Assembly (NCBI RefSeq): GCF_017355885.1
Contig: NZ_JAFEUU010000001.1
Location: 434,001-498,000, forward strand
Length of the DNA: 64,000 nucleotides
Direction: 5' to 3'
Source: Sabulicella rubraurantiaca
GTDB lineage: Bacteria; Pseudomonadota; Alphaproteobacteria; Acetobacterales; Acetobacteraceae
How positions within the stretch are numbered: position 1 is the stretch's first letter; the number at the start of each line of letters is the position of its first letter. The notes below the pieces were generated by a model. That model searched no databases. It saw only the letters and a list, made by a program, of their open reading frames with translations, and was not told where the DNA came from. A program made the position numbers and the translations under genes. Shown one piece after another: positions 4,417 to 62,502 of this stretch.

Positions 4417-4437
4417 CGGATAGCCCTAATGACAGCT

Positions 4438-5400: not shown

Positions 5401-5401
5401 T

Positions 5402-42184: not shown

Positions 42185-42242
42185 GGCAGGCAGGGCCAAC
42201 CCTCCCGGCATCGGCGCGTTACGCGCCGGAAAGCTGGGATTG

Positions 42243-42857
42243 ATGGCGCCACTCTTCACCCCTCGCGCCGATGCGCGGCTTCGGCTCGCGCTCGTCGTCG
42301 CGGCGCTCCTCGCCGTGCTCGCCCTGGCGCTCGGCTATGCCTGGGCGCGCTCCGGCTCGACATGGGCCATCGGAAAACCGACGGAGCAGCCCATCCCTTT
42401 CAGCCACGCCGTCCATGCGGGCCAGCTTGGGCTCGATTGCGGCTTCTGCCACAGCAACGCGGCGCGTGGTGCCAGTGCGGGGATGCCTTCCGGCGAGCTG
42501 TGCCTGGGCTGCCACCAGCGTGTCTGGAACGTCACCGCGCAATTCGCGCCCGTCCAGGCAGCAGTGGATACGGGGATGGCGACGCAATGGGCCTCGGTGC
42601 ACCGCTTGCCTGACCATGTCCGCTTCCACCACGCGGCGCACCTCGCTGCGGGCATGACCTGCGCGACCTGCCATGGCGCGGTGGAGACGATGCCACGAAC
42701 GGTTCGCGCGGAGACGCTCTCCATGGGCTGGTGCCTCGATTGCCACCGTGACCCGCGATCGCGCGGGCTGACGCCCGTGGGCCTCGGCGCGCAGCCATAT
42801 GTACATGCCGGGGTCGAGGTTCCTCCCCTCACCCGCTGCACGGTCTGCCACAAGTGA
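42243..42857 (+). CDS. actA: Alternative complex III subunit ActA (pentahaem cytochrome c)
   Basis: 204 aa from ATG 42243. One N-terminal membrane anchor (LRLALVVAALLAVLALALGY). Five CxxCH haem sites can be counted: CGFCH, CLGCH, CATCH, CLDCH and CTVCH. This matches ActA, the pentahaem cytochrome that passes electrons in the complex that replaces bc1. Its stop overlaps the GTG start of actB. It heads a six-gene operon in which every junction overlaps by four bases. Confidence 0.93.
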   Translation: MAPLFTPRADARLRLALVVAALLAVLALALGYAWARSGSTWAIGKPTEQPIPFSHAVHAGQLGLDCGFCHSNAARGASAGMPSGELCLGCHQRVWNVTAQFAPVQAAVDTGMATQWASVHRLPDHVRFHHAAHLAAGMTCATCHGAVETMPRTVRAETLSMGWCLDCHRDPRSRGLTPVGLGAQPYVHAGVEVPPLTRCTVCHK

Positions 42858-46809: not shown

Positions 46810-47408
46810 AGCGCGTCCTCGGCGCCGCCCTCTACTGGTTGCTGCGGCGCCCGCGCGCGGCGGAGGTCGTTCTGCCGCCACGTGGCGCCGGCACTATCGC
46901 CGAGTTCCACGATGCTGATGCGCTGACCGAAGCCGTGCGCGCCGCTCGCGCCGAGGGCTGGACCCGCTTCGAGGCCTATGCGCCACATCCCGTTCCCGAT
47001 GCGGCGGAGGCAATGGGCATCCATGCCGCGCCGGTCGGCTGGATCGCGGCCGGGGCGGGCGTCGCCGCCATGGCGGGCGCCTATGGGCTGACCATGTACC
47101 TGTCGGTCGTGGACTATCCGGTGAATGTGGGAGGGCGCCCGCCACATGCCTGGCCGGTCTACCTGCCAGCGGCCTACATCGTTGGCGTGCTGGTCGCCGC
47201 GCTGGCGGCGCTGCTCTCCATGTTGTGGCTGAACGGCCTTCCGCGCCTGCACCATCCGGTCTTCGCCGCGCGCGGCTTCCTGAGAGCTAGTGAGGACCGG
47301 TTCTTCCTCTGGATCAGCCCGGACGACCCGATGCACACGCCGGAGGGCGCGCAGCGCTTCCTCCGGTCCCAGGCACCGCTGCGCGTCAGCGAGGTGCCGC
47401 CCTCGTGA
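46806..47408 (+). CDS. actD: Alternative complex III subunit ActD (DUF3341)
   Basis: 200 aa from GTG 46806. The first ~75 residues are soluble (IAEFHDADALTEAVRAARAE, then FEAYAPHPVPDAAEAMG). Two membrane segments follow at ~80-100 and ~120-145 with PVNVGGRPPHAWPVYLP between them, the hallmark of DUF3341/ActD. Its role is structural. Overlaps both neighbours by GTGA. Confidence 0.92.
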   Translation: MKRVLGAALYWLLRRPRAAEVVLPPRGAGTIAEFHDADALTEAVRAARAEGWTRFEAYAPHPVPDAAEAMGIHAAPVGWIAAGAGVAAMAGAYGLTMYLSVVDYPVNVGGRPPHAWPVYLPAAYIVGVLVAALAALLSMLWLNGLPRLHHPVFAARGFLRASEDRFFLWISPDDPMHTPEGAQRFLRSQAPLRVSEVPPS

Positions 47409-47812
47409 GACCCGCAGCGCTGCCCTTCCTAATGCTGCTCGCGGCCTGCGATGGCTGGGTGGAAAGCCCGCGCCCACCCCCGCCCATTCCCGCGCCGGAG
47501 GGCAGCGTGGCGCAAGGTGCCGCCGCGCGCCGCGCCGCCCTGGCCCCGCCTGGCCCCCCAGTGGACGAGGCGCTGCTGCGCGAGGGGGCGGAATTATTCC
47601 GCGTCTTCTGCGCCCCCTGCCACGGCCCATCCGGCGCGGGAGATGGCGTCGTGACGCGCCACGGCCATCCGCCCATCCCGCCCCTGCCTCGCGACGCATT
47701 GCAGAGCATGGCGGCACTTCAGTCCAATCTCGCCGGTGCGCATCCGGTCGAGGGGCGGCTGGACCCACGCCAGCGATGGGCCGTTTCGCGCTTCGTGGAG
47801 CGCCTGCCGTGA
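47405..47812 (+). CDS. actE: Alternative complex III subunit ActE (monohaem cytochrome c lipoprotein)
   Basis: 135 aa from GTG 47405. The signal ends in a lipobox (LMLLAACDGW), so the mature protein is lipid-anchored in the periplasm. One haem site is in FCAPCHGPSG, with a Met/His-rich stretch later (HGHPPIPPL). It is the likely exit point for electrons to the oxidase. Overlaps actD and actF by GTGA. Confidence 0.9.
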   Translation: MRPAALPFLMLLAACDGWVESPRPPPPIPAPEGSVAQGAAARRAALAPPGPPVDEALLREGAELFRVFCAPCHGPSGAGDGVVTRHGHPPIPPLPRDALQSMAALQSNLAGAHPVEGRLDPRQRWAVSRFVERLP

Positions 47813-48717
47813 GCGCCCTGGCCGAGACCTGGCTGCTCCTCTTTCTGCTCGCCGCCGGAATTGGGCTAGGGGCCGCGCTGGCCATGACGATAGGACGGTT
47901 GCTGAAGGAATCCTGGCTCGATCCTCTCCGCCCTACCCTGGCGCCGCTGGCGCGCTGGGCGCCGCTGGCAGCGCTGCTGCTGGCGCTGCCCATGCGTATC
48001 CTGGCGCCCTACATTTGGCCGTGGGGGAACGATCCCCGCGAGGCTATGGAAGACCCTACCGTGGTCTGGATCGCCTCGCTCGCCATCCTGTCGCTCTGGG
48101 CCGGGCTGGGTTGGCTCCTGGCGCGCCCTGCGGCCGGGCGCGGCAGTGCGGGCATGGCCCTGGCTGTGCTGTTCATCACGGGTGCGATTGCGATGGAGGA
48201 ATGGGCGCTTTCGCGCGATGCCGCTTGGACGGGGAGCGTGCAGGGCGTTGCCCAAATGACCGAGCAGGTCGCCTTCGTGCTGGCCCTGGCCACGCTGCTG
48301 GCGATGCGTCGCGGAGAACCATCGGAACCCGAGGCGCGGACCGGGCTGGAACGCGCGCTGTTGAGCATCGCCTTGGGCGTGTTGTGGCTGTGGTTCACGC
48401 AATATGTCGTGGTCTACTATGCCGATATTCCCGCGGAAGCCGCCTGGTACATGCGGAGGAGCGATGGCGCATGGGCTTGGCTGAAGGTCGGATGGCTCCT
48501 GCCGACGCTGCTTGGCGCGGTCGGGCTGGCCATCGTTCCGCAGTGGCGTGACTGGCGCTTCAAGCTGGTGGCTCGGCTTCTGCTGCTTCAGCATCCCGTC
48601 CACCTCTTCTGGGTGGTGCGGCCGGAGGCACCGCCAGGCGCAGTCTCCCCGGTGCTCGATCTGGTGGTGGTGGCGGCGCTGCTTGCGGGTTCCTTCCTCA
48701 TGCTGCGGCGGGCCTGA
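47809..48717 (+). CDS. actF: Alternative complex III subunit ActF
   Basis: 302 aa from GTG 47809. Eight or so hydrophobic segments; GAALAMTIGRLLKESWLDPL, MRILAPYIWPW and WFTQYVVVYYADIPAEAAWY match the ActF paralogue of ActC, a shorter NrfD-derived subunit. It ends the act operon. In relatives the caa3 oxidase genes usually follow; here the selA gene follows after 35 bases. Confidence 0.88.
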   Translation: MSALAETWLLLFLLAAGIGLGAALAMTIGRLLKESWLDPLRPTLAPLARWAPLAALLLALPMRILAPYIWPWGNDPREAMEDPTVVWIASLAILSLWAGLGWLLARPAAGRGSAGMALAVLFITGAIAMEEWALSRDAAWTGSVQGVAQMTEQVAFVLALATLLAMRRGEPSEPEARTGLERALLSIALGVLWLWFTQYVVVYYADIPAEAAWYMRRSDGAWAWLKVGWLLPTLLGAVGLAIVPQWRDWRFKLVARLLLLQHPVHLFWVVRPEAPPGAVSPVLDLVVVAALLAGSFLMLRRA

Positions 48718-48752: not shown

Positions 48753-50117
48753 ATGGATGCTGCTGCCTCTGATCCACGCCGCGCCCTACCTGCGCTGCAC
48801 CGCCTGCTTGCCATGCCAGAGTGCGAGATCCTGGTGCACGTGCGCGGGCGCGACCCTGTGGCGGACGCCATGCGGAAAGAGCTGGCGGCGCTTCGCAAAG
48901 CGGGAGAGAGCTTCGATGCGCGGCAGTTCTTCGCCGCGTTGGAAGCGCGCCTCGGAGCAGCGGAGGGCGTGCGCCGCGTGCTCAACGCGACCGGGGTGGT
49001 GCTGCACACCAATCTGGGCCGCGCCCCGCTCGCTGGCCCTGCCATCGCCGCGATGACGGAAGTCGCGCGCGGCTATTGCTCGCTGGAGATGGACCTGGAG
49101 TCCGGCCGGCGCGGCGACCGCTTCGGCGGGGCGACGGCATTGCTGCGCGAGCTGACGGGATGCGAGACGGCGCTGGTGGTCAATAACGGCGCCGCTGCCG
49201 TGCTTCTGGCGCTATCCGCTGTCGCTTCGGGCGGCGAGGCAATCGTGTCGCGCGGCGAGCTGGTCGAGATCGGCGGCGGGTTCCGCATTCCCGAGGTCGT
49301 CGCGCAGGGAGGTGCGCGCCTCGTCGAGGTCGGCACCACCAACCGCACGCGCCTGCCGGATTATGAACACGCAATCGGACCTGACGCGCGGGTGATCTTG
49401 CGGGTCCACCCATCGAACTACCGAATCCTTGGTTTTACCGAGGCGCCCGAGCCCGCCCGCCTCGCTGCGCTGGCGCGCGAGCGGGGCCTCGTCTCCGTCG
49501 AGGATCTCGGAAGCGGCGCGCTGCTCGATCTCGCACGTGTTGGGCTGCCAGGCGAACGTGGGCTGCGCCAGGCGGTGGCCGACGGCTTCGACCTCGTCGC
49601 GGCCAGCGGCGACAAGCTGCTAGGTGGGCCGCAGGCGGGGCTGCTCCTGGGCCGGGAGGATGCGATCGCGCGCTGCGCGCGGCACCCGTTGATGCGCGCC
49701 CTGCGTCCGGACAAGGCGACGCTGGCCGCGTTGGAAGCGACGCTGCGCTTGCACCGCGACCCGGAACTAGCCCTGCGCGAGGTGCCGGCGCTGCGGATGA
49801 TGGCAGAAGGAGCGGAAAGCCTGTCCCGGCGGGCCCAAACCCTTCTGACCCTTCTGCCCGAAGCGGCGCGGGCGGAGGCTGTGGCAGGGGACTCGCTCGT
49901 GGGGGGCGGTGCCCTACCGCTGGCGCGGCTTCCCACCACCCTCGTCGCACTGCACCCCGAGAACATGACGGCAGAGGAGCTTGCAGCCAGGCTGCGCCGG
50001 TCACGTCCACCCCTCGTCGCGCGGCTCGAACGAGGACGGCTGCTTCTCGACCCACGCACCCTCGCCGAGGGTGAGATTGGCGACGCGGCGCGCGCGGTGG
50101 CGGAGGCCCTTGCATGA
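48753..50117 (+). CDS. selA: L-seryl-tRNA(Sec) selenium transferase
   Basis: 454 aa, typical for SelA. N-terminal tRNA-binding helices (residues ~1-60) are followed by a PLP-dependent fold. Conserved pieces: [18 protein letters not shown], the active-site lysine in [14 protein letters not shown], and [14 protein letters not shown]. It converts Ser-tRNA(Sec) to Sec-tRNA(Sec) with selenophosphate. Its stop overlaps the selB start (ATGA). It is the entry to the selenium module between act and cox genes. Confidence 0.96.
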
Positions 50118-52000
50118 GGCGTGCCCTGATCGGCGTGCTGGGCCACGTGGACCACGGAAAGACGGCACTGGTGCGCACGCTGACCGGCACCGACACCGAC
50201 CGTCTGCCGGAGGAGAAGCGGCGCGGCATCTCCATCCTGCCCGGCTATGCGCGGCTGGAGGGCGAAGGGGCCGAACTCGATCTCGTGGATTTGCCGGGTC
50301 ATGAGCGCTTCGTGCGCGCCATGGCGGCAGGCGCCTCCGCCATGCGCGCCGCGCTTCTGGTCGTGGATGCGCGCGAAGGCCCGCGCACCCAGACGCACGA
50401 ACATGCAGGCATCGCCGCGCTGCTCGGCGTGCGCCGCGGCGTGGTCGCCGTCACGCGCACCGACCTTGCAGGCGGTGGTGAAGTGGCAGCGGCGACCGAG
50501 GGAGCACGTGCCCTTCTGGCTCAGCTCGGCCTGGGTGACTGGCCATGCCTGCCGTGTTCTGCCGTTTCAGGTGCGGGCTTGGCTGCGCTGCGCGCGGCGC
50601 TGATCGACCTCGCGGAGCCGGAAGTGACTGGCGAGGCAGGGCAAGCCTGGATGCCACTGGATCGTGCCTTCCATCGGCCCGGGGCGGGGCTGGTTGTCAC
50701 GGGCGCGCTGCGGGCAGGCCGCCTGATGCCCGGTGACACAGTGGAGATCTGGCCCGGCCCACGCCACGCCACCATCCGCGCCCTGCAAAGCCATGGGCGG
50801 GTGCTGGAGGAAGCCGGGCCGGGACGGCGCCTCGCCGTAGCGCTGAAGGGCGACGCGGCGGGACCGGGGGATGCGCTTGCATCCCCCGGGTTTTTGGCTG
50901 CGTCCCCGATGCTGGATGCCTGGGTGACAGTGTTGCCCGATGTCCCTCGCGCCCTGCGGCGGGAGGAGTTCCGCCTGCTCTGCGGCACGGCGGAATGCGG
51001 TGTGCGGCTGCGCCTGCTGGATCGTGCGGAACTGTCCCCGGGCGAAAGCGGCGCGGCGCAGCTTCAGCCGGATGTTTCCCTCGCCCTGCCAGTACGGGCA
51101 CGCTTCCTCCTGCGCCTGCCGCTTCCGGTTGGAACCGTGGCTGGTGGGGTGGTGCTCGATCCGGAAGCGCCACGCCACCGGGGGCGAGATGCGGCGCTGC
51201 TGCAATCCCTTGCGGCGCTGCGACCAGAACAGGCGGCGCAGCGTGTCCTGGAGGCTGCCGGTCCGCGCGGCTTGCCCACGGACCGCCTGCGCCGCCTCGC
51301 CGGAGGCCGATTGCCAGAGGGCGCGGTGGCGCTCACCGGCGGCCTCTCGCTGGCCGACTCAGTGCTGGCTGAGCTGGAGACGGCGCTGCGCGAGGCGGCG
51401 CGCGACGCGATTGCACGCAACACGCTGGGACCGGGGCCGGAAGCGCGCGCCCTCCTGCGCACCGCCCTCCCCGTCGGCGCGCCCGGCGAGGCCGTGGCAG
51501 CGCGCCTCATCGCCCGCGGCGTCCTGCGCCTCGTATCCGGCCGCTTCGCCCTGCCCGGCGGGGCTGCGCTGGGCGAAGCGGAACATCGCCTGTTGCGCGA
51601 GGTGGAGGCGGCATTCCGCAACGCCTCGCTTTCGCCGCCCGAGCCGGCCGCCGTGGCGGCGGGTGACCGGGTGCGGATGTCAGCGATCCGGCACCTGCTG
51701 GCGCAGGGCATCCTCTTCCGTGCCGCCGATGCCGTGCAGAAGCGCGAATGGATCTTTCACCGCGATGCGCTGGCCGAAGCGAGGCGCCGCCTTGCCCCTG
51801 CCCTGTCTGCTTCGACCGAAGGGCTGACCGTCTCCGATTGCGACAAGCTGCTCGGCATCACGCGGCGCCACGGCGTGCCGCTGCTCGAAAGGCTGGATGC
51901 GGAGGGCTTCACGCGGCGCGTAGGAGACCGGCGCCGCCTCAGTTCCGAGCCGGAAGGCGAGGCAGGGCCTCGGCCTCGTCACGCGTCAGCGGAAGGATGA
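50114..52000 (+). CDS. selB: Selenocysteine-specific elongation factor
   Basis: 628 aa, close to the usual ~610-640. The GTPase domain has [28 protein letters not shown] and a variant G4 box TRTD. The elongation factor domains II-III follow, and the C-terminal ~220 residues are the winged-helix repeats that grip the SECIS hairpin of the mRNA. It delivers Sec-tRNA to in-frame UGA. Overlaps selA by ATGA. The last 62 bases overlap the convergent PRC-barrel gene. Confidence 0.96.
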
Positions 52001-52247
52001 CGCGGCCCTGGCGGTTGCTCACCTGCTGGAACGGGACCAGCACGGCACCGTCCTCCATCTCGATCAGCAGGCCCATCGGCACCCCATCGCGGTTCGTCAC
52101 AACGCGCCGGATCAGGCCGATGCGCGCACCGTCCGAGGCAAAGGCCTCACGCCCCACGAAGGCCGCTGGATCCGGCGGCTGCTGCGCAAGGACCGGCAGC
52201 GTCATCACCGCCGCGCCGAAACCCCAACTCAGCAGCGACGTTGCCAA
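51939..52247 (-). CDS. Exported PRC-barrel-like small protein
   Basis: About 102 aa. Two starts are possible: TTG 52247, giving a full signal peptide (ATSLLSWGFGAAVMTLPVLA, then QQ), or ATG 52205, which cuts it short. I prefer the TTG. The mature part (FVGREAFASDGARIGLIRRV, PMGLLIEMEDGAVLVPFQ) has the PRC-barrel strand pattern. An ATG further upstream would overlap the tRNA-Sec gene and is rejected. Its 3' end overlaps selB tail to tail. Function unknown; the family often binds metals or RNA, or stabilises membranes. Confidence 0.7.
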   Translation of the reverse strand: MATSLLSWGFGAAVMTLPVLAQQPPDPAAFVGREAFASDGARIGLIRRVVTNRDGVPMGLLIEMEDGAVLVPFQQVSNRQGRVILPLTRDEAEALPRLPARN

Positions 52248-52250
52248 GAT

Positions 52251-52343
52251 GGAGGCGATTGGGGCCTGGTGGCCCCCACGGTCTTCAAAACCGCAGGCCC
52301 GCCGATGGCGGGCGGTGGGTTCGATTCCCATCCGCTTCCGCCA
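52251..52343 (+). tRNA. selC: Selenocysteine tRNA, anticodon UCA
   Basis: 93 nt including encoded CCA (52341-52343). The anticodon loop is C-T-TCA-A-A with anticodon TCA, decoding UGA. It has the long 6-bp D stem (GGGGCC/GGCCCC with loop TGGT), the extended acceptor stem (GGAGGCG paired to CGCTTCC), a long variable arm (GCCCGCC/GGCGGGC) and the T loop TTCGATT. These features are specific to tRNA-Sec. It ends 2 bases before the convergent focA stop and lies next to selAB, completing the decoding set. Confidence 0.95.
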
Positions 52344-52345
52344 CA

Positions 52346-53206
52346 TCATGCTTCATCATCCTTCTTCAGGCGGAGATAGGCGAACCAGTATGCCGCGCCG
52401 ACCAGCACGCCGCCAACGATATTGCCGAGCGTCACCGGGATAAGGTTGCGGACGAGGCCTTCCAGGCTCGCATCGGGATATTCCGCGGGGGTAAGGCCCG
52501 TTGTTTCCCAGAAATCCGAACCCGAAAGGTCGCGCACACCCCAGCCCAGCGGGATCAGCGACATGTTCGCCACCGAGTGCTCGGTGTTCAGCGCAACGAA
52601 GGCCGCGATGGGCGGAATGATGACGAGGATCTTGTCCGTCGCGCTGCGCGCGCCCCAGGCCATCCACACACCGAGGCAGACCAGCGAATTGGCGAGGATG
52701 CCGCTGACGAAAGCCTTTCCAAATGGGAGTTCACCCTTCGCCTGCGCGGTCTTCATCGCTGCCGCCCCAAAGGCGCCGTCGCCGGACATGGCAAGCCCCG
52801 CGCCCAGCGCCAGCGCCACGGCGAGGAGCGAGCCGATGAGGTTTGTCACATAGGCCAGCACCCAGGCCCGAGCGACATCTCCCAGGCTCGCGCGGTCCTC
52901 CGCCCAGGCCACCACCAGCAGCGTGTTGCCAGTGAAAAGCTCGGCGCCGCTCACCACCACGAGGATCAGGCCCAGGGTGAAGACCAGCCCGGCCAGGAGC
53001 CGCGACACGCCATAGGGCATCGCTTCCTCCCCGCCCGACAGCGCCACGGTCGCAAGCAGGCCGCCAAAGCCGATATAGAGCCCAGCGAGGATCCCAAGCG
53101 TCGCGAGCACCCGGAAGTCCAGATGCGCCTTTTTTGCCGTCTTCTTCGTGGCGGTCTCGGCGATCTTCTCGGGCGGGCGGACCTCCGTCTCGGGGGCCTC
53201 GGCCAT
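52346..53206 (-). CDS. focA: Formate/nitrite transporter (FNT), FocA-like
   Basis: 286 aa with six membrane segments. FNT signatures: SGAELFTGNTLLVV, NSLVCLGVWMAWGA and ALNTEHSVANMSLIPLG. The family forms pentameric channels for formate or nitrite. Placement downstream of the formate dehydrogenase subunits makes formate the expected substrate. The N-terminus has a 25-residue Lys-rich cytosolic extension. A ribosome binding site (GGGAGG) lies in the upstream 88-aa gene. Confidence 0.93.
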   Translation of the reverse strand: MAEAPETEVRPPEKIAETATKKTAKKAHLDFRVLATLGILAGLYIGFGGLLATVALSGGEEAMPYGVSRLLAGLVFTLGLILVVVSGAELFTGNTLLVVAWAEDRASLGDVARAWVLAYVTNLIGSLLAVALALGAGLAMSGDGAFGAAAMKTAQAKGELPFGKAFVSGILANSLVCLGVWMAWGARSATDKILVIIPPIAAFVALNTEHSVANMSLIPLGWGVRDLSGSDFWETTGLTPAEYPDASLEGLVRNLIPVTLGNIVGGVLVGAAYWFAYLRLKKDDEA

Positions 53207-53207
53207 C

Positions 53208-53474
53208 TCAGCCTCCCTTTAGGAGGTCGCGCGCCTTTTCCAGCCGCCCGGGACGGAACCCCGCCACCGGAAGCGCACCGGACCAGGTGAGCGCCAGCGC
53301 CGAGTTCACCCGGCGCAGATCCTCCTCGACCGCCTCCCCGGCACGGCGACGGCGCACTAGCTCGTCTCGCAAGCTGGACAGCGCCAGCAATGCATCGCGC
53401 GCCTTGTCCATCGTGCAGGGGCGCGGTTCGTCTGCGAGGTGGTCCAGTGCAGCACGGGCCTCGGCTGCGTTCAT
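53208..53474 (-). CDS. Small helical protein of the formate dehydrogenase operon, 88 aa
   Basis: ATG 53474 overlaps the stop of the membrane subunit gene (ATGA) and its TGA is one base from the focA start. The protein is helical and charged (DKARDALLALSSLRDELVRR), without membrane spans, signal peptide or metal motif. The translational coupling on both sides says it is a real operon member. I do not recognise a family; an accessory or assembly role for the enzyme is a guess. Confidence 0.8.
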   Translation of the reverse strand: MNAAEARAALDHLADEPRPCTMDKARDALLALSSLRDELVRRRRAGEAVEEDLRRVNSALALTWSGALPVAGFRPGRLEKARDLLKGG

Positions 53475-54391
53475 CGCCGCACCTCACGCGCGAAGCCGAG
53501 GGAGTCGAGCGGGCGCTTCGCGCTCTCGTCACCTGCGCGCAGCACCGCCTGGCGCAGCAGCGCGCTGCCGATCAGGATTGCGGCGGAGGCCAGGGCTGGA
53601 CGGCCCAGGGCGCGCAGCACGAGAGGCGCGGCGATGCCCAGCGCCTGGGCGCCCGCCTTGTGCAGCAGCGCGGGCGGACCCTTCTTGAGCGGCGCCGAGA
53701 CGCCGGCGCGGCGCTGCGCGTCGGAGAGCATCATCGAAGCCGCCGTCTCGGCCCCCAGCGCGGCGGCCGAAAGCCGCTCCAGGCGCCGCGCGCTTTCGAC
53801 CTTGCCGGCGCTCCGCTGGAGCAGCGCCATCGCCGCCGCGCCGCCCGCCATGGAGGAGGCGGCGAACTGCGCAGCCAGCGGCGCCCGGGCTGCGGCCCAG
53901 AGGGGGTTCGAGGTCGTGGAAAGCAGTGTCGCCGTATAGCTCGCCGCCCCTGCCCCGGCGAGGCTCGCCGGAATCTGCGCGAGGTCGGCGGCGCGACGCC
54001 AGCCCATGCGTTCCGCGCCCCAGGCCGCGAAGCTGGCCGCGCCGAAGGCGGTCAGCACCCAGGAGCCCCAGGACATCGGCGATTGCGGGCGCACGATGCG
54101 CAGCATGTTGTACCAGCGCTTTGGCGTCTTCAGGTGCCCAATGAGAATGGCCGGGGCGATGATGGACCCGGCAAAGGCAAGCGCACGGGCGCGCGAGGCC
54201 AAGCCGTCCCGATCCTCTGGATCCTCGGTGCGCGAGATGCCAGCGAGCAGCTGCGCCGCGCCCGCCACGCCCTGGACGGCGATGTAGGTCGCGACCTTCC
54301 AGTCGAACTCCGCGGGCTTGAGCGTCGGGCGGCCATGATAGGTCTCACCCTGCCAGGGCTCGGGCAGCGGGACCGGAGCCATCGCGTTCAT
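53471..54391 (-). CDS. NrfD-like membrane subunit of formate dehydrogenase
   Basis: 306 aa from ATG 54391 (ATGA overlap with the Fe-S subunit). Start: MNAMAPVPLPEPWQGETYHG. About nine hydrophobic stretches; the NrfD/PsrC features are TAFGAASFAAWGAERMGW-type and LAGISRTEDPEDRDG loops. It would carry electrons from the Fe-S subunit to the quinone pool, replacing the cytochrome b subunit of FdnI-type enzymes. The longer open frame upstream is noise from the preceding gene. Confidence 0.85.
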   Translation of the reverse strand: MNAMAPVPLPEPWQGETYHGRPTLKPAEFDWKVATYIAVQGVAGAAQLLAGISRTEDPEDRDGLASRARALAFAGSIIAPAILIGHLKTPKRWYNMLRIVRPQSPMSWGSWVLTAFGAASFAAWGAERMGWRRAADLAQIPASLAGAGAASYTATLLSTTSNPLWAAARAPLAAQFAASSMAGGAAAMALLQRSAGKVESARRLERLSAAALGAETAASMMLSDAQRRAGVSAPLKKGPPALLHKAGAQALGIAAPLVLRALGRPALASAAILIGSALLRQAVLRAGDESAKRPLDSLGFAREVRR

Positions 54392-55251
54392 CGCCGGCTC
54401 CCAAGGCCGAAGACCAGCGCAGCGGCTGCCAGACCTGCCAGAGTTCCCAGTCCGGCAAGCAGGGAGGGCTGCGCGCGCGGCGCCGGACGCACCGGCTCGG
54501 AAGGCAGGCCATGCACCTCCGGACGTTCGGTCAGCAGGAAGAAGGCATTGAGCTTCTTGATGCCGTGCGTCGCGCCAGGAGTGCCGGGCGCGCCGTAGAG
54601 ATAGGCGCGGTCCTGGCCCATCTCGTGCAGGTGCTCCACCCGCTGATGCGCGCGAGGGATCAGGTCCTCCAGTGCGCCGAACTGGATCGAATCCGTGGGG
54701 CATGCCTTGGCGCAGGCAGGCTCCATCCCGCCCTTCATCCGGTCGTGGCAGAGGGTGCATTTATGCGCCTTGCCGTCGGCCTTGGAGACCTCCACCACGC
54801 CGAATGGGCAGGCCGGGACGCAATAGGCGCAGCCATTGCAGATGTCCTGCTGCACTACGACCGTGTCGAACTCGGTGCGGAACAGGGCACCGGTCGGACA
54901 GGCTTCCAGGCAGGGCGCCGGGTCGCAATGCTTGCAGACGTCGCTGAACATGATCCAGTTGGACTGGAAGGGCTTCATCTCGCCTGGGCGATCGTCCAGC
55001 CGCTCTACGAAGCCGACATGGCGCCAGGTCTCGGCGCCCAGCGCGCCGGTGTTGTCGTAGGAATGGCCGGACAGGCGCATGTCGCCATCGGCCGGCAGGC
55101 CGTTCCACTCCTTGCAGGCCACCTCGCAGGCCTTGCAGCCGATGCAGAGCGTCGTGTCGGTGAAGAAGCCATAGGAACGGCCAGGCTCGATCCGCGCGCC
55201 GGCGGTGCGCTCGGCCTCCTGCGCGCCCCGGTTGATCAGCCCGCCATCCAT
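54388..55251 (-). CDS. Formate dehydrogenase iron-sulfur subunit
   Basis: 287 aa. Four [4Fe-4S] sites: CIGCKACEVACKEWNG (~residue 36), CKHCDPAPCLEACPTGAL (~107), CNGCAYCVPACPFG (~138) and CTLCHDRMKGG with CAKACPT (~163). A C-terminal membrane helix (LAGLGTLAGLAAAALVFGLG) anchors it. It links the catalytic subunit to the NrfD-like membrane protein. It starts one base after the catalytic subunit stop. No signal peptide is present, so the enzyme likely faces the cytosol unless carried by a Tat partner. Confidence 0.93.
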   Translation of the reverse strand: MDGGLINRGAQEAERTAGARIEPGRSYGFFTDTTLCIGCKACEVACKEWNGLPADGDMRLSGHSYDNTGALGAETWRHVGFVERLDDRPGEMKPFQSNWIMFSDVCKHCDPAPCLEACPTGALFRTEFDTVVVQQDICNGCAYCVPACPFGVVEVSKADGKAHKCTLCHDRMKGGMEPACAKACPTDSIQFGALEDLIPRAHQRVEHLHEMGQDRAYLYGAPGTPGATHGIKKLNAFFLLTERPEVHGLPSEPVRPAPRAQPSLLAGLGTLAGLAAAALVFGLGSRR

Positions 55252-55252
55252 G

Positions 55253-58200
55253 TCACGTCGCCTCCCTGCGCGGCCTTTGCACGCGACTCAGCCTTCCTGG
55301 CCGCAACGCGCAGGCAAGCGACTTGTTCTCGTGCATCCCCGTATTCGCGTCGCCGACCACGGCGGTCAGCACGTTGGCGACGTCGCCCGTGGCGAAGCCG
55401 GACCAGCCGAAGTGCCAGGGCAGCGCCAATTGATGGCACTCGCGGCCGTCTGGCAGGCGGAAGGGCCGCAGGCGGGACGTCACCATTGCCCTGGTCTCGA
55501 TCTCGCCGCGCTCGGTCGAGAGCACGACCCAGTCGCCCATGCGGATGCCGATTCTGCCTGCCAGCTCCACCGGGATCTCGCAGAACATCTCGGGCTGGAG
55601 TTCGGCGGTGGTGGTGACGATGCGCGTCGGAGTGCCGCCCGAATGGTGCTCGGTGAGGCGGAAGGTTGTCAGCATGTGCGGGTAGCGCGGGTCCGCTGGC
55701 GGGGCAAGGCGATTATCGTGCTGGTCCCAGCGCTTGGCCGCCGGGCTGGACGACATTCCGGGATGCAGTGGGTTGGTGGCCGGCGTCTCGACTGACTCGT
55801 AATGCTCCGGCAGCGGGCCGTCCTTCATGCCGGAGGGGGAAAACAGCGCGGCGCGACCATCTGCGATCATGATGAAGGGGTCGGAGCCGCTATGGGCTTC
55901 CATCCCCTTGGGCTTCTTCGACCAGTCGGGCTCGAAGTCAGGGCGCTTATCCTTGGGGAAATCGGGCACGTCGGGCCCGGACCACTCGCTCTTCTCCTCG
56001 TCCCAGGTGATCAGCTTCTTGCGTTCCGACCAGGGGCGGCCGTCAGGGTCGGCGCTGGCCCGATTGTTCAGCGTGCGGCGGTTGGCCGGCCAGGCGAAGC
56101 CCCAGCCGAGATGCGTGCCCGGCCCCTCGGGTCCGTCCGCCTTGCGGCTGCGGGCGAGGTTCTTCCCCGGTTCCGGAAAGACCCCGAGGTAGATCCACGT
56201 CCCACAGGCGGTGGAGCCGTCCTCCTTTAGGTCCTTGAAGTCGGATAGGAGCTTTCCGTCGGCGCAGCGATAGCCGTTGATCTCGCAAAGAACCGCTTCG
56301 GCGTCCGGCTCGTCCTCCTCGTCGCGTGGGTAGTTCCAGCGCAGGTTGAGGATCGCCTTGTCCTCGGGCCTCGTGCTGCCCGCATAGAGCTTGCGGATGC
56401 GCCGCCCCAGCTCGTCCACGAACCAGAGCTCCGAGGTGGAATCGCCCGGCGCGTCCACCACCTTGTCGTGCCACTGCACAAGACGGTGCGTGTTGGTGAA
56501 GCTGCCTGCCTTCTCGCCAGACAGGGCACCGGGCATGAGGAACACCTCGGTCCCGATCTCCTCTGGCCGCATTTCGCCGTCGCGGATCAGGTGGCCATCG
56601 CGCCAGAAGGTCGCCGTGTCGGTCTCGGCGATGTCACGCACCACCAGCCAGTCCAGCTTGGCGAGGCCGCGCTGCACGAGCTTGGAGTTGGAGCCGCCCA
56701 CCGCCGGGTTCTGCCCCATGACGAAGAGCCCGCGGATCACGCCATTGTCCATCGCGAGACTGATGGGGAGCATGCTGTGGTCGCCGACAATGCGCGCGAG
56801 CCAGTCATAGCCCCAGCCATTCGCCTCGGAGGCTTCGCCGCCATAGTAGGCGCGCAACAGCGAGACGGCGTATTTCGGGAACTCGGCCCACCATCCCGTC
56901 GGTGCGGTCTCGACCTTCAGGTACTCTTCCAGCGTCCCATGCGGGCGCAGCGCATGCGGCTGTGGCAGGTAGCCAGGCAGCATGTCGTAGAGCGTCGCGA
57001 TGTCGGTCGAGCCCTGGATGGAAGTGTGGCCACGCAGGGCGAGCATTCCCGCGCCCGGTCGACCCACATTTCCCAGCAGCCCCATCAGGATCGCGCCGGC
57101 GCGGATGATCTGTGCACCGACCGTATGGTGGTTCCAGCCGACGGCGTAGCAGATGGCACCCGTACGCTCGCGGCCCGAATTGCGCGCCATCGCCTCGCAC
57201 ACCTTGATGAACAGGTCGCGCGGACAGCCGGTGATGCGCTCCACCATCTCCGGCGTGTAGCGGGCGAAATGCCGTCGCATGATCTGGTAGACGCAGTTCG
57301 GGTGCTGCAGCGTCTCGTCACGCGGAGGAGGACCGTCGCGCATGTGCGACACACGCTCTGCGAAGTCTCCGCCCGTCTCCATCCACGCCTCGGCGAGCGG
57401 GGACGGCACGGTGAGGCCCTTGTACTGCCAGGTTTCCGTGCTGTAGCGCGTCTCCTCCTTGTTCCATCCGGAGAAAGTGCCGTCGCCCTCCGGGCCCGCG
57501 AACCCGTCCTCGATGATGGTGGCGATGTTGGTGTAGGGGATCGCCCACTCGCGGAACCAGAGGTCGTTCTCCAGCAGGTAGTGGATGATGCCGCCCAGGA
57601 AGGCGATGTCCGTCCCCGCACGGATCGGCGCGTAGATGTCGCACATGGCCGAAGTACGGGTGAAGCGCGGGTCCACATGGATCAGCGTCGCACCGCGGAG
57701 CTTGGCCTGCATCGCGAAGCGGAAGGCGATCGGATGATTCTCGGCCATGTTGGAGCCCATCACGAGCACCACGTCGGAGCGCGCGAGGTCCCACTGGGGC
57801 ATCGTCGCCGCGCCCCGGCCGAAGGTGGTGCCCAGACTGGGCACCGAATTGTTGTGTCAGACCCTGGCCTGGTTCTCGACGAAGACCATCCCGAGGCCGC
57901 CGGTGAAGAGCTTCTTGATCAGATAGTTCTCTTCATTGTCTAGCGTGGCCCCGCCAAGCGAACCGATGGCCATGGTGTGATTGAGGCGTGTCCCGTCCGG
58001 GGCATCGCCTACGAAGCTTTCGTCTCGGGTCTGCTTGGTGAGGTGCGCGATGCGGTCCATCGCCCAGTCGAGCGACACCTCGCGCCATTCTGTCGCATGG
58101 GGCGCACGATGCAGCACACGGTCCAGGCGCATAGGGCTGGTCATCAGCCCCATCGTCGCCGCGCCCTTGGGGCAGAGCGTGCCTTGGTTGATCGGGCTGG

Positions 58201-58444
58201 CGGGGTCGCCCTCCACCGCGATGGGCCGGCGGTCCTTGGCGTAGATCAGTTGGGCGCAGCCGACGGCGCAGTAGGGGCAGATGGAGGTTCCGACGGAATC
58301 CGCCTTCTCCGTTCGCGGACGGCCGCTTCGCGCCATGGCCGCTTCTGCAGCCTCGCGCCGGTGGTCCTGCCCGGCCATCTGCCGGGGAACGGACCACTCG
58401 CGCAGGAACTCGGCAGCGCGGTCGGGGATGGTGCGGCGGGGCAT
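55253..58444 (-). CDS. fdhA: Formate dehydrogenase catalytic subunit, selenoprotein (in-frame UGA)
   Basis: Two frames, 58444-57860 and 57856-55253, are in phase and split only by TGA at codon 196 (57859-57857). The flanks read VENQARV-U-HNNSVPSLG, the exact site of the catalytic selenocysteine in FdhG/FdoG enzymes (U-H...S.P.LG). Total ~1063 aa fits. It has the [4Fe-4S] motif CPYCAVGCAQL (~residue 57) and the bis-MGD core (GSNMAENHPIAF). No Tat signal is visible at the N-terminus. A SECIS hairpin follows the UGA. It oxidises formate to CO2. A ribosome binding site GAGGAGG precedes ATG 58444. Confidence 0.96.
57827..57859 (-). promoter_or_regulatory. SECIS element of fdhA (UGA codon plus hairpin)
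   Basis: The UGA is at 57859-57857. Eleven bases later a perfect 7-bp stem starts: GGTGCCC (57845-57839) pairs with GGGCACC (57833-57827), with loop AGTCT. The spacing and the GU-containing loop fit bacterial SECIS elements bound by the SelB C-terminus. The stem lies inside the coding sequence. Confidence 0.88.
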
Positions 58445-58455
58445 GGCGTGCCTCC

Positions 58456-58668
58456 TCAAAGGCGCTCGACGCGATGGGCCTTGCCGGACACGAGGCCCGG
58501 CGCCGGTTCCCATTCAACGCCAACGCGGCGATGCAGCAGCGGTGGCAGGTCCTGCGGCTCAATCGGGGCGGAGGGCGACAGGGCCAGCGTCAGGCCGCGC
58601 CCATCATCGCGCAGCAGCCTGAAGCGGCCCTCCTGGACGAGCAGCACGGTCCCTGTCGAATAGTTCAT
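58456..58668 (-). CDS. Small protein between selD fusion and fdhA, 70 aa
   Basis: Starts at ATG 58668 inside the 3' end of the selD fusion gene (65-base overlap) and ends 11 bases before fdhA. The peptide (MNYSTGTVLLVQEGRFRLLR...) is beta-rich, with a basic C-terminus and no cysteine. The composition is clearly coding. I do not know a family; position between the selenophosphate and selenoprotein genes suggests an accessory role. Confidence 0.7.
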   Translation of the reverse strand: MNYSTGTVLLVQEGRFRLLRDDGRGLTLALSPSAPIEPQDLPPLLHRRVGVEWEPAPGLVSGKAHRVERL

Positions 58669-60775
58669 CGCGCGGGCAACGGGCGGCGGCGACGCCGGGT
58701 TGCAGACGGATGCGAGGAGCGCCCTCGATCGCGTGCCCAATGATGCGCGCTTCGATCCCGGCATCGCGAAGGGCGTCCGCGCAACGCTCGGCTGCCTCCG
58801 CGGGGAGGCCGGCGACGAGCCCGCCCGAGGTCTGCGGGTCCAGCATCAGCGCGAGGCGTTCCGGCGGAGCCTCACCATCCACCTGAGCGAGCGCGGCCTG
58901 GTTTGCCGAGTGCAACGTGCTGCGGATGCCTGCAACCAGCGCCTCAAGTGCCCCGGGCAGGGCTGGGGACGCCTGGGGATCCAAGACGGCGCCGCAGCCC
59001 GATGCCGTCAGCATTTCCCCCAGATGGCCCAGCAGGCCAAAGCCGGTCACATCCGCAGCCGCCCTGGCGCCATGAGCGCGCAGGATGCGGGCAGCCGGCA
59101 TCGGGTCCGCCTGCATCTGCGCCCAGCACGCGGCGAGGTCGGCGCCACGCGCCTGCCCCATCATCGCGGCGGCCATGACCACCCCCGTGCCGAGGCGCCG
59201 CGTTAGCAGGAGCACGTCACCCGGCCGCAGCGCGCCACGCCGCAGCGTCGTGCCTTCCGGCGCATCGCCTGTCACGCTGAAACCGATCATGGCTTGCGCA
59301 GCCTCGGCACTGTGGCCGCCCAGCAATGGCACGCCGGCCGGTCCGAGCACGGACTGCGCGCCATGCAGCAACTGGAACAGATCACCTTCCTGCACCGTGG
59401 GGGCGGCGTCTGGCAGCGCCACCAGGGCCAGGGCTGCGCGCGGCTCCGCGCCCATGGCGGCAAGGTCGCCCAAAGCATGAGCGGCGGCGATGCGCCCGGC
59501 CACCCAGGGGTCCTCCACCGGGGGGCGGAACAGATCCACGCTCTGCACCGCCTCGCCGCGCAGGGGCGGAAGGGTGGCTGCATCCTCGGCGGGGCCGGCC
59601 GGCGCGCCGCCTAGGCGCGACAGCGCGGCGCGCAGCACGGAGGGTGCCAGCTTGGCGCCGCAGCCTTCGCAACGCATCGCCATCGGCGCGGGGGTGGCCT
59701 CCATCGGTGTGGGGGGAAGCTGGCGGAAGGAGTTCAGCCAGGCGCGGTCGATCCGGTCCTTCCAGCGCAGCGCCCAGCGCCCGCGCAGCGCGAAGCCGCC
59801 CCAGATCGCGATCGCCTCGTCACCCGCCTGCAACAGGGCAAGGCTGCGGCGCTGTGGCCGAAAGGGCCGCGTCGCGTGTCCCTCCACCAAAGCGCGGATA
59901 TTCTCGGCAAGCGGCGTGCCCTGCCGGACGGAGTAGACACCGTTGCGAGGGCGCTGCTCCCCCTCGACCGAGGCGATATCCCCGGCGAGAAAGATCCGCT
60001 CCTCCCCCACGGCACGAAGATCGAGCGCCACCAGGAACCACCCCTCGCCGTCACGGCGCAGGCCGGAGGCGGCCAGCCATGCAGGCGGCGCGGCGCCTGC
60101 CGCCCAGAGGCACAGGTCGAAGGGCACCGACGCGCCGTCCTCCAGCACCAGCCGCGCCGGCTCGACGCGCGAAGCCCGCGTGTCGAGGTGGCGCACGCAG
60201 GCCCGGCGCAACGACGCCTCGACGAGGCGCAATCCTAGCGGCCTTCCCGGCGAAACCAGGGTGATCGAAGCCCCGTCGCCCAGGCGCGACCGCGCCGCCA
60301 GCGCAGCCTCCACCCCCGCGGCGCCACCGCCGGCCACGACGACACTCCGCCCTGGCCGCAGCGCCGCCTCCCAACCTTTGAGAAAGCGACCGAGGGGCTT
60401 CAGCGGAAGCGCGTTGGCCTCGGCGCCCGGCACGGTGGCCATTGCGGCGCCGGGACATAGCGACAGCACGTCCCATCGCAATGGTGGGCGCTCTCGCAGC
60501 ACCACCTCGCGCGCCGCCCGGTCCAACCCGGTGGCCTCCGCCAGGATGAGCCGCGCACCGGCGCTGCGCGCGAGCCGCGCGAGGTCCAGCATCGCCTCCT
60601 CGCGCCGCCAGCGCCCTGCCATTACCGCAGGCACCGCACCCGAATAGGGTTGCTCCGCTTCCGGCACGATCAGGGACAGTCGGGCAAAGGGCGGCAGCGG
60701 CCGCATGGCGAAGCGGCGCAGCGCCACGAGATGTGCCGCGCCAGCTCCCACCAGAACGACATCGTACCGGATCAT
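58604..60775 (-). CDS. selD: Fused FAD-dependent oxidoreductase and selenide, water dikinase (SelD)
   Basis: 723 aa from ATG 60775. Residues ~1-370 are an NDH-2-like FAD/NAD(P) oxidoreductase: VVLVGAGAAHLVALRRF, then VVVAGGGAAGVEAALAA and the FAD-site IFLAGDIASV. Residues from ~380 are SelD: the active-site segment RCEGCGAKLAPSVLR with Cys and Lys, VDLFRPPVEDPWVAG, and LLGGHSAEAAQAMIG. It makes selenophosphate from selenide and ATP. The same fusion is known in cyanobacteria and some proteobacteria; the oxidoreductase may reduce the selenium substrate. The enzyme is Cys-type, not a selenoprotein itself. Confidence 0.95.
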   Translation of the reverse strand: MIRYDVVLVGAGAAHLVALRRFAMRPLPPFARLSLIVPEAEQPYSGAVPAVMAGRWRREEAMLDLARLARSAGARLILAEATGLDRAAREVVLRERPPLRWDVLSLCPGAAMATVPGAEANALPLKPLGRFLKGWEAALRPGRSVVVAGGGAAGVEAALAARSRLGDGASITLVSPGRPLGLRLVEASLRRACVRHLDTRASRVEPARLVLEDGASVPFDLCLWAAGAAPPAWLAASGLRRDGEGWFLVALDLRAVGEERIFLAGDIASVEGEQRPRNGVYSVRQGTPLAENIRALVEGHATRPFRPQRRSLALLQAGDEAIAIWGGFALRGRWALRWKDRIDRAWLNSFRQLPPTPMEATPAPMAMRCEGCGAKLAPSVLRAALSRLGGAPAGPAEDAATLPPLRGEAVQSVDLFRPPVEDPWVAGRIAAAHALGDLAAMGAEPRAALALVALPDAAPTVQEGDLFQLLHGAQSVLGPAGVPLLGGHSAEAAQAMIGFSVTGDAPEGTTLRRGALRPGDVLLLTRRLGTGVVMAAAMMGQARGADLAACWAQMQADPMPAARILRAHGARAAADVTGFGLLGHLGEMLTASGCGAVLDPQASPALPGALEALVAGIRSTLHSANQAALAQVDGEAPPERLALMLDPQTSGGLVAGLPAEAAERCADALRDAGIEARIIGHAIEGAPRIRLQPGVAAARCPRDELFDRDRAARPGGPLQAAAR

Positions 60776-60841
60776 TTCCTGCGCAGCCCTCCCGCGCCTT
60801 CCGCGTTGCCACAACGCCAAGGTGCAGCGAAAGGCCGAAGC

Positions 60842-61543
60842 GTGCCGCCTCTTCCTATCCCGTATTGCGGCGCGCCGCCCGTGCCGGGGGCCGTGTCGTG
60901 GAACGCCGATGCGGCAATTTCGGTGGCCATCCTGGGCCTTGTCGCGCTGGGGTGGCGCCGTTCGCCGAACCGCGTGGCGCTCCTTTTGGGCTCGGGGCTC
61001 GTCGCTCTCGCCCTGCTGTCACCGCTCTGCTCGCTCGCCGTGGCGCTGTTCTCGGCGCGGGTCGCGCAGCACATGGCGCTTGTGCTGACCGCGGCGCCGC
61101 TGCTGGCGGTCGGGCTTCGGGCCCGCGCGCCTTCGGCGCCGGTGGCCGCCTCCGTCTTCGCGGCGGTGCTGTGGCTGTGGCACCTCCCCGCGCCCTATGG
61201 CTGGACCTTCACCTCCGATCTGGCGTGGTGGGCGTCGCACCTCTCGCTGCTGGTGGCGGCGGTGTGGCTCTGGCAGGCGCTGCTGCAGGCGCGGCCAGAG
61301 TCGGCGCTGGCCGCGGGCATCGTGACCGCCGCGCAAATGGGCGTGCTTGGCGCCTTCCTCACCTTCGCACCCCGCCCCCTCTATTGGCCGCATGCCATCA
61401 CCACTCGGCCCTGGGGGTTCTCGGCGCTGGAGGACCAGCAGCTGGGCGGACTCCTGATGTGGGTGCCCGGCGGCGTGCTCTTCGCTGCGCTGGCTCTCGC
61501 CGCCGTGGCACGGGCGCTGCGCGAGGCGCGGCCGGCGGGATGA
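60842..61543 (+). CDS. ctaG: Cytochrome c oxidase assembly factor CtaG (caa3 type)
   Basis: 233 aa from GTG 60842. About seven membrane segments. Family marks are the copper-site type histidines in RVAQHMALVLTAAPLLAVGL and LWLWHLPAPYG, and the late segment YWPHAITTRPWGFSALEDQQ. CtaG-type proteins insert copper or assist assembly of caa3 oxidases. Its stop overlaps coxB by ATGA. It is the first gene after the selenium module and divergent from selD. Confidence 0.9.
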   Translation: MPPLPIPYCGAPPVPGAVSWNADAAISVAILGLVALGWRRSPNRVALLLGSGLVALALLSPLCSLAVALFSARVAQHMALVLTAAPLLAVGLRARAPSAPVAASVFAAVLWLWHLPAPYGWTFTSDLAWWASHLSLLVAAVWLWQALLQARPESALAAGIVTAAQMGVLGAFLTFAPRPLYWPHAITTRPWGFSALEDQQLGGLLMWVPGGVLFAALALAAVARALREARPAG

Positions 61544-62502
61544 AGCGCCTCCTGCCGCTTCTCCTGCTCGCTGGCTGTTCCGGCCCGCAAACCCCGCTTG
61601 ACGCGTGGGGGCCGCAGGCGGATCGCATCGCCACGCTCACCTGGCTGCTCTTCAGCGGCGGTGGGGTGATCCTGACGATCGTGGTGGTGGCCATCACCCT
61701 CGCGCTCTGGGCGCCGTCCTCTTGGCGGAAGCGCATGGGCAATATCCGCTTCGTGATCGGCATGGGCATCATCTTCCCAGTTGTGACGCTGACCGCCCTG
61801 CTCGCCCACTCCCTCGGCGTTTCGCGCGCCCTCGTCACCTCTGGCGGGGAAGAGCCGATGCGCATCGAGATCGTCGGCCGGCAGTATTGGTGGGAGATGC
61901 GCTACCTCGACACCGGCGCCGTCACCGCCAACGAGTTGCGCCTGCCGCGGGGGCGGGAGGTAGAGTTGATCCTGACCTCGGCCGACGTCATCCACTCGGT
62001 CTGGATCCCCAATCTGCACGGCAAGCTGGATATGATCCCCGGCAAGGCCAACGTGCTTCGCCTGCGCGCCGACCGCGTGGGCGAGCTGCGCGGACAATGC
62101 ACCGAGTTCTGCGGCGAGCAGCATACGCTGATGGCCTTCCCCGTCGTCGTGCACGAGCCGCCTGAGTTCGAGGCATGGCTCGAGCGGCAAATCGCCCCCA
62201 TCCCTGCCCCCGCCACACCGGAACTGGAAGCCGGGATGCGCGTCTTCGGTGCGGCCGGATGCGGCGCCTGTCATGCGGTGCGGGGGACCGAATGGCGGGC
62301 GCGCATCGCGCCCGACCTGTCGCGCCTTGGCTCGCGTCTCACCCTTGCCGGCGGGGCGCTGCCCAATAACCTCGGCAACCTTGCGGGATGGATTGCCGCC
62401 CCGCAGGACATCAAGCCGGGGAACCACATGCCCGCCTTTGCGCGCTCGCTCTCGGGCGAGGAGATCCTCGCCCTTTCCACCTGGCTGGACTCGCTGCGGT
62501 GA
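61540..62502 (+). CDS. coxB: Cytochrome c oxidase subunit II with fused haem c (caa3 type)
   Basis: 320 aa from ATG 61540. The signal ends in a lipobox (LLLLAGCSG). Two membrane segments precede the CuA domain: VIHSVWIPNLHGKLD and CTEFCGEQHTLMAFP hold the ligands. A C-terminal cytochrome c domain has CGACH near residue 243, so electrons can come directly from ActE or cytochrome c. It overlaps the coxA start by GTGA. Confidence 0.95.
   Translation: MKRLLPLLLLAGCSGPQTPLDAWGPQADRIATLTWLLFSGGGVILTIVVVAITLALWAPSSWRKRMGNIRFVIGMGIIFPVVTLTALLAHSLGVSRALVTSGGEEPMRIEIVGRQYWWEMRYLDTGAVTANELRLPRGREVELILTSADVIHSVWIPNLHGKLDMIPGKANVLRLRADRVGELRGQCTEFCGEQHTLMAFPVVVHEPPEFEAWLERQIAPIPAPATPELEAGMRVFGAAGCGACHAVRGTEWRARIAPDLSRLGSRLTLAGGALPNNLGNLAGWIAAPQDIKPGNHMPAFARSLSGEEILALSTWLDSLR

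Follow-up and report, generated by a model that had tools for sequence, protein, structure and literature searches.

The 64,000-nt stretch of Sabulicella rubraurantiaca DNA analysed here (the window; G000:C11:434001-498000, from a 5.02-Mb genome in 64 contigs that is 99% complete) carries, at window positions 48753-60775, the genes for decoding selenocysteine (Sec), a UGA-containing formate dehydrogenase and a formate channel. We consider it likely that this locus serves selenium-dependent formate respiration and is self-sufficient and, jointly with this, that the set evolves as a loosely held cassette whose genes are often found together, with single ones sometimes replaced. From left to right, the locus comprises selA and selB on the forward strand, a PRC-barrel open reading frame (ORF) on the reverse strand, selC on the forward strand and then, all on the reverse strand, focA, the small ORF h88, fdhC, fdhB, fdhA with its UGA, the small ORF h69 and an oxidoreductase/SelD fusion. 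A sequence-only reading of this DNA had named six parts (SelA, SelB, tRNA-Sec, the SelD fusion, the UGA-containing FdhA and the formate channel), all of which were found where it had placed them; fdhB, fdhC, h69, h88 and the PRC-barrel ORF come in addition.

Judged from comparative sequence data, the UGA at 57857-57859 (reverse strand) is assigned to Sec with near certainty. The fdhA gene (55253-58444, reverse strand) encodes a molybdopterin formate dehydrogenase that scores 954.5 bits against TIGR01553 (cut-off 814.2), and its preferred start, an ATG at 58444 preceded by GAGGAGG and chosen by eye, gives a 1063 amino-acid protein with Sec at residue 196. This UGA is the sole stop within fdhA, and the open frame runs 867 codons beyond it. 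In the alignment, the corresponding column holds Sec or Cys in 16 of 16 rows, the codon being TGA in 16 of 17 sequences and TGC in the remaining one. Eleven bases from the UGA lies a hairpin of the bacterial Sec insertion sequence (SECIS) type (57827-57845, reverse strand), its eight base pairs closing a 3-base GUC loop. All eight pairs are kept in 16 of 16 alphaproteobacterial Sec sequences, namely 13 distinct sequences (the window and G248 are identical and counted once) plus G162, Caenispirillum and G398, with the partial FdhA of G311 left out; stem substitutions are one-sided and pairing is preserved via wobble. A serine codon within the hairpin is AGT in 16 of 16, a codon otherwise rare (28 of 793 serine codons across 14 fdhA genes, their 14 hairpin codons included). 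Taken alone, an in-frame UGA would also suit a genuine stop and an fdhA pseudogene; set against the intact frame past it, the Sec/Cys column, the recurrence of TGA and the frozen hairpin, that explanation has practically no probability. In the Cys form of Chelatococcus the hairpin keeps 6 of 8 pairs, with both broken pairs inside the stem. The gene concerned lies on a plasmid of Chelatococcus sp. CO-6 (L093:7759-13451) and encodes the same enzyme type with Cys replacing Sec; none of the 18 features of this stretch is a Sec gene.

The Sec-decoding trait is represented in full, with SelA, SelB, tRNA-Sec and SelD alongside the in-frame UGA and its downstream hairpin, bearing out the sequence-only reading that nothing needed for decoding is missing. 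L-seryl-tRNA(Sec) selenium transferase is encoded by selA (48753-50117, forward strand; TIGR00474, 507.6 bits, cut-off 267.9; PF03841), which overlaps by four bases with selB for the Sec-specific elongation factor (50114-52000, forward strand; PF00009 above cut-off; PF09107, 42.7 bits, cut-off 23.2). ARAGORN placed selC, a tRNA-Sec with anticodon UCA (tca), at 52251-52343 on the forward strand, and Rfam RF01852 matches it over 52251-52339 with 75.5 bits (cut-off 47). SelD is fused behind a pyridine nucleotide-disulphide oxidoreductase domain (58604-60775, reverse strand; TIGR00476, 224.8 bits, cut-off 125; PF07992; AIRS); the fusion scores 307.4 against TIGR03169, just under the cut-off of 310, and 455.6 against TIGR04369 (fusion_not_SelD), under its cut-off of 700. 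Its GCGAK motif retains both the Cys and the Lys, which we take to be the catalytic residues. A search of the genome returned 12 tRNA-Sec matches, two of them above cut-off; the second is a tRNA-Ser, as is the third examined. There is a single SelB gene, with five further matches of at most 51 bits, one SelD, and one FdhA of the window kind plus three partial-length places at 34-38%. A second tRNA-Sec or SelB serving FdhA, which the sequence-only reading had raised as a possibility, was therefore absent from the genome search, which covered tRNA-Sec, SelB, SelD and FdhA. FdhD, needed for the enzyme and not for decoding, is located on a different contig.

Several lines of evidence set this FdhA apart from the classic FdoG/FdnG enzymes. 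NF041513 outscores TIGR01553 for the window FdhA, the reverse holding for the classic enzyme of the congener G322, and the FdhA proteins of G021, Indioceanicola, Chelatococcus and Thermomicrobium exceed the NF041513 cut-off. In FdhA trees the window type is separated from the FdoG/FdnG branch with 100/100 support, and the window and G322 enzymes are 40% identical. No twin-arginine translocation (Tat) motif occurs within residues 1-50 of the window enzyme, whereas the classic G322 enzyme has SRRSLLK. FdnGH-like A and B subunits and an NrfD-like C subunit are encoded together in one operon: fdhB (54388-55251, reverse strand; PF13247, 83 bits) specifies a 4Fe-4S subunit with a single C-terminal hydrophobic segment by hydropathy, and fdhC (53471-54391, reverse strand; PF03916, 50.8 bits, cut-off 25.8) the NrfD-type membrane subunit. 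Next to them lies the gene for a FocA-like formate channel (52346-53206, reverse strand; PF01226, 238.3 bits, cut-off 34.6). To judge by its sequence, FdhABC resembles FqoABC and appears to be a formate:quinone oxidoreductase that faces the cytoplasm and is anchored by an NrfD-type subunit. We place FdhA in the cytoplasm because the export signal is missing, an orientation consistent with the adjoining formate channel. Since the FdhG family is listed as periplasmic in the pertinent part of a 2023 survey (PMC10100899), a cytoplasmic member would depart from it.

In the scheme we propose, SelD, fused to its oxidoreductase domain, would supply selenophosphate, with which SelA would convert Ser-tRNA(Sec) to Sec-tRNA(Sec); SelB would then deliver the latter to the fdhA UGA, guided by the hairpin past the codon. 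Formate imported by the FocA-like channel would be used by the cytoplasm-facing FdhABC, with electrons predicted to pass from FdhA via FdhB to the NrfD-type FdhC, where quinone would be reduced. The products of the adjoining genes could carry them onward to oxygen. Directly upstream of selA lie alternative complex III genes (42240-48717, forward strand), comprising actA-actE (matches to Cytochrome_C7, Fer4, NrfD, ActD with 163.1 bits, and cytochrome c) and a last ORF that is likely actF by position and returned zero matches in a Pfam scan. On the other side, ctaG, coxB with a cytochrome c domain, and coxA (Caa3_CtaG, COX2 plus Cytochrom_C, COX1) encode a caa3-type oxidase (60650-64000, forward strand, running beyond the window).

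The complex III neighbourhood recurs. In a survey of 397 genomes of the family, window-type SelB (at least 353 bits; the next match has 262) occurs in 16, namely G000 (the window's genome), G248, G186, G166, G369, G271, G049, G036, G205, G311, G021, G162, G078, G181, G080 and G043. ActB is found in 82 of the 397, comprising 14 of these 16 versus 68 of the other 381 (Fisher 8e-9, uncorrected for kinship). Moreover, ActB lies at most 12 kb from SelB or FdhA in seven of the 16 (G000, G248, G186, G166, G271, G036 and G021), in at least three gene orders. By their coordinates, the classic-type genomes G003, G102, G236 and G312 have ActB on another contig or ~970 kb off.

A number of results weigh against this reading of the locus. 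Four proteins fall short of the cut-offs of specific family models: SelB with TIGR00475 (222.9 bits, cut-off 242.25), FocA with TIGR04060 (242 versus 290.1), FdhB with TIGR01582 (173.6 versus 334.7) and, slightly, FdhA with NF041513 (1390.2 versus 1400). Simple hydropathy analysis (threshold 1.0) gives FdhC six segments, versus eight in FqoC. None of the compared sequences shows a two-sided compensatory change in the hairpin, and 7 of 8 pairs are kept in Thermomicrobium and 6 of 8 in the classic-type G322. Of the 14 genomes with both ActB and window-type SelB, 7 have ActB on a separate contig. Finally, FdhE (PF04216) was not found in the genome by a search that was positive in 1 of 14 control genomes.

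Among the 16 family members with window-type SelB, FdhA of the window type is present in 15 (partial in G311), and G080 has a classic FdhA. The genes selA, selB, selC, fdhA and selD lie within ~22 kb in seven of the 16 (G000, G248, G369, G271, G043, G162 and G036), a count to be read with several of the remaining genomes interrupted by contig ends and with G078 lacking SelA at such an end; in G043 and G162, SelD is not fused. Within the window's genus (14 genomes searched for SelB, window included), presence is patchy, a point in support of the sequence-only interpretation: two carry the window type (G000, G248), two the classic type (G175, G322), and the other ten have SelB matches of only ~1e-22 to 1e-24, or none. 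Outside the family, Caenispirillum salinarum AK4 (L138) has a full cluster in ~11 kb, and Indioceanicola profundi carries the set with its tRNA-Sec on a 1.18-Mb plasmid. A SelA scan of named genomes, probed with the window proteins and thus liable to miss distant homologues, covered 80 loci of at least 590 matches. The 35 of these with full flanks included SelB in 17, selC in 14, SelD in 15, FdhA in 3 and all four in 2; both loci with SelB, selC, FdhA and SelD in ~10 kb (L138, L155) are alphaproteobacterial. The sequence-only statement that sel genes are mostly scattered or only partly linked is therefore supported in this wider sample, but not for Alphaproteobacteria, where linked sets have been published (Zhang 2006; Peng 2016). 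Separately, a SelB-like gene of another kind was seen in 22 of the 40 loci L205-L244 (e.g. L209-L211, L213, L216 and L217), with no SelA or tRNA-Sec within the fetched stretches, some of which are short.

The histories of the individual genes agree in part. Because RpoB alone left the deep order unsettled, a core tree was built from a single alignment of seven rpoB-region proteins (25-29 of 29 genomes per protein; a quick tree with Shimodaira-Hasegawa-like approximate likelihood ratio test (SH-aLRT) support only). RpoB by itself did not reject a clade of the genera coded g1 (the window's own), g63, g25 and g95 (p 0.08), nor the pairing of G271 with G036 (0.19), and it set G205 and G162 weakly beside the other group (70/54). 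In the core tree, g95 joins g1, with g63, g25, g37, g17 and g22 as the other group, and G024 stands apart from G166 and G271 despite their common code g25. The SelA, SelB, FdhA and FdhB trees, by comparison, put G186, G166 and G369 near the window, with G021 added for FdhA and FdhB. (The FdhA of G398 was cut at residue 625, ahead of its joint, and that of G162 was partial in the first trees and complete later.) The core data reject G369 with G166 (p 3e-6), these two with G186 (8e-47) and, more weakly, G271 with G036 (0.02). G166 and G271, which share one genus code, are rejected as sisters by SelA (3e-5), SelB (9e-5) and FdhA (5e-5). For these two genomes, SelA, SelB and FdhA agree with one another and conflict with the core genes, the pattern that the sequence-only reading had proposed as the sign of joint transfer.

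Elsewhere, single genes go their own way. One window-type clade including G271 and G036 is rejected by SelA (0.004), while grouping this pair with the classic type is rejected by SelB (2e-9); the SelA of G271 and G036 is of the classic type and their SelB is not. Sisterhood of G205 and G162 is rejected by FdhA (3e-62), whereas their SelA and SelB are sisters. G021 is a mosaic: its FdhA falls in the window group, a SelB lacking an adjoining selA falls with G271/G036, and a further selA-selB-selC set is closer to the classic type (L061, L072, L080). In L061 (G021:C55), the window-type SelB contains one in-frame stop, and neither selA nor tRNA-Sec lies beside it. Independent histories, the outcome that the sequence-only reading had set against its portable unit, are thus encountered in some relatives, in SelA of G271 and G036 and in FdhA of G205 and G162. 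Two further points tell against joint movement. The core grouping of g1 with g95 is rejected by FdhA (p 0.003) and not by SelA (0.14) or SelB (0.15); as FdhA alone rejects it, joint transfer is not shown there. In addition, the clades were named only after the trees had been seen, which makes the p-values optimistic. The portable unit finds partial support, from the part of the family in which histories are shared and from the plasmid copy; single-gene swaps, the lack of mobility genes among the scanned neighbours and the lack of a shift in G+C speak against it. It is conceivable, and we advance it as a tentative idea that may well prove wrong, that the locus packages a genetic-code change with an entire aerobic formate chain, that selection keeps the Sec machinery as the dedicated supply of this chain, and that lineages rebuild the package by swapping parts besides inheriting or importing it as a block.

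How the locus came to be in the window's own genome can be read in two ways. That the six genes are one transferable cassette, recently mobilised and brought into this genome as a block, seems unlikely to us. It would account for the two different Sec sets in the genus, which SelA does not allow to be united (3e-51), for the three found under code g25 (G166, G271 and G024), for the rejection of G166 and G271 as sisters by all three genes, and for the copies on the Indioceanicola plasmid and in Caenispirillum salinarum. However, no integrase or transposase was detected among the neighbouring proteins scanned, a scan that did not take in every ORF or a search for attachment-site (att) repeats. 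The G+C content of the block is in line with that of its surroundings, and the Indioceanicola plasmid is typed as non-mobilizable in PLSDB. There is no clean empty site either, the flanking GltA and PrfC being far apart or on separate contigs in congeners, and the single-gene differences in G271, G036, G205, G162 and G021 do not suit a block. G248, moreover, is colinear with the window for more than 40 kb, across the whole block, and G398 has the same neighbours.

These common neighbours in G248 and G398 fit old presence as well as they fit transfer. We rate as nearly even the chance that this is an old respiratory locus, inherited vertically within the genus and lost from most of its members. 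The order act-sel-fdh-selD-ctaG-cox is common to G000, G248 and G398, in the last with an internal gap; G398 sits elsewhere in the genus, and SelA and FdhA group these three. ActB is found in 4 of 21 genus genomes (G000, G248, G398 and G377). On the other hand, vertical descent needs many losses and, for G175 and G322, an additional acquisition of the classic set. G398 lacks any stretch matching window positions 50470-56591 (6.1 kb), its fdhA abuts selB at L085:9595-9613, and no tRNA-Sec was found on the contig of the block; since the assembly has 410 contigs and 7% contamination, the gap may be a deletion or a misjoin. For the window itself, old presence with loss is at least as good an explanation as transfer.

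In two relatives the set appears to be broken at selC. In G186, an integrase ORF is directed at selC and ends ~45 bases past it. The next ~16 kb encode a type III restriction enzyme and methylase, proteins resembling GmrSD and the helicase DrmD, and another integrase in inverted orientation (L053:9047-10153, L274). The last 127 bases at the far end of this integrase contig recur at the end of the fdh contig. They contain ~60 bases from the 3' portion of selC, spanning the anticodon loop through CCA, and this partial copy directly precedes focA on the fdh contig (end of L073). The fdh contig of G166 (L074:1-340) has a similar, slightly altered copy of the selC 3' part before focA, and no integrase match was obtained on its two contigs as fetched. 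From these sequences we infer that in both genomes the set was probably once contiguous and then interrupted at selC, the exact structure in G186 being unreadable from the assembly. We also considered whether the separation of selAB and fdh onto different contigs in G186 and G166 reflects independent histories, which is ruled out by the selC 3' copy on both fdh halves. In the window, 2 bases separate selC from focA, and the G186 integrase has no match. Integrating elements apparently target selC. This gene is well known as an integration site in Escherichia coli; one literature search combining the terms for integration at selC in Alphaproteobacteria returned no paper.

Linked sel-fdhA clusters and their co-transfer as a unit are themselves known. 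According to the relevant passages, Zhang 2006 (PMC1794560) described selABC linked to fdhA in Alphaproteobacteria, Betaproteobacteria and Pseudomonadales, arguing for co-transfer, Peng 2016 (PMC5029168) added selD to the linked, transferred set, and Mukai 2021 (PMC8124441) reported an alphaproteobacterial selB-selC overlap and the pSymA cluster. As in the window, the fdoGHI-selABCD cluster of Sinorhizobium meliloti pSymA and other Alphaproteobacteria links a Sec formate dehydrogenase to selA, selB, selC and selD, and it can also be megaplasmid-borne (as set out in those parts of PMC1794560 and PMC8124441). The window differs in that its FdhA, unlike the Tat-exported enzyme of that cluster, lacks a Tat motif, lies off the FdoG/FdnG branch and is paired with an NrfD anchor, and in that SelD is fused, selC lies outside selB, and the locus also includes a formate channel and small ORFs. 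The SelD fusion corresponds to the commonest kind, NADH-dehydrogenase-like/SelD, as described in part in Mariotti 2015 (PMC4561486), with an N-terminal oxidoreductase domain, a Cys-containing SelD and no departure seen. With FqoABC, the window shares FdnGH-like A and B subunits and an NrfD-like C subunit; the passages on FqoABC in Calisto and Pereira 2021 (PMC8076601) treat the name as tentative and the complex as uncharacterized, list it from Actinobacteria, Chlorobi, Crenarchaeota, Chloroflexi and Deltaproteobacteria, not Alphaproteobacteria, and do not mention Sec genes. Closest in content is Caenispirillum salinarum AK4, which holds fdhC, fdhB, fdhA, h69, selA, selB, selC and the SelD fusion in its ~11 kb, but in another gene order and with no formate channel found in the stretch.

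What is distinct here is the type of enzyme, its setting beside complex III and oxidase genes, the exchange of individual parts and the apparent interruptions at selC; among the titles listed in our literature searches, none was on this enzyme type with Sec, nor on its linkage to complex III. Given two unlike Sec formate dehydrogenases within one genus, each with its own machinery, the group offers a natural test of how a 21st amino acid is retained and transmitted, its parts travelling together in some relatives and being swapped in others. The tRNA-Sec is required by the enzyme and seemingly also offers an insertion point to elements that disrupt the cluster. An enzyme resembling FqoABC, tentative in print, is placed beside genes for the remaining respiratory chain, and Caenispirillum salinarum AK4 and Indioceanicola profundi SCSIO 08040 are named relatives in which these ideas can be tested.

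Two small ORFs and a PRC-barrel ORF complete the locus. The h69 ORF (58456-58668, reverse strand; 70 amino acids) lies directly before fdhA. Of 20 related loci, 15 have a relative of it beside fdhA or fdhB, among them the Cys-type Chelatococcus locus, and the motif is VQE(G/S)RF...EPQDLP. Behind fdhC, h88 (53208-53474, reverse strand) has relatives in 7 of the 20 loci. Profile searches of Pfam and NCBIfam gave zero matches for either. The PRC-barrel ORF (51939-52247, reverse strand; PF05239, 25.4 bits, cut-off 21.2), for which a TTG start was inferred by eye, runs antisense over the end of selB and, among 27 loci, is present between selB and selC only in the window and G248. Far from the locus, window positions 2001-10000 have a G+C content of 51-59% versus ~70% and encode a metallophosphatase (3424-4416), an Abi_alpha protein (7499-8179) and a methyltransferase (8588-9565).

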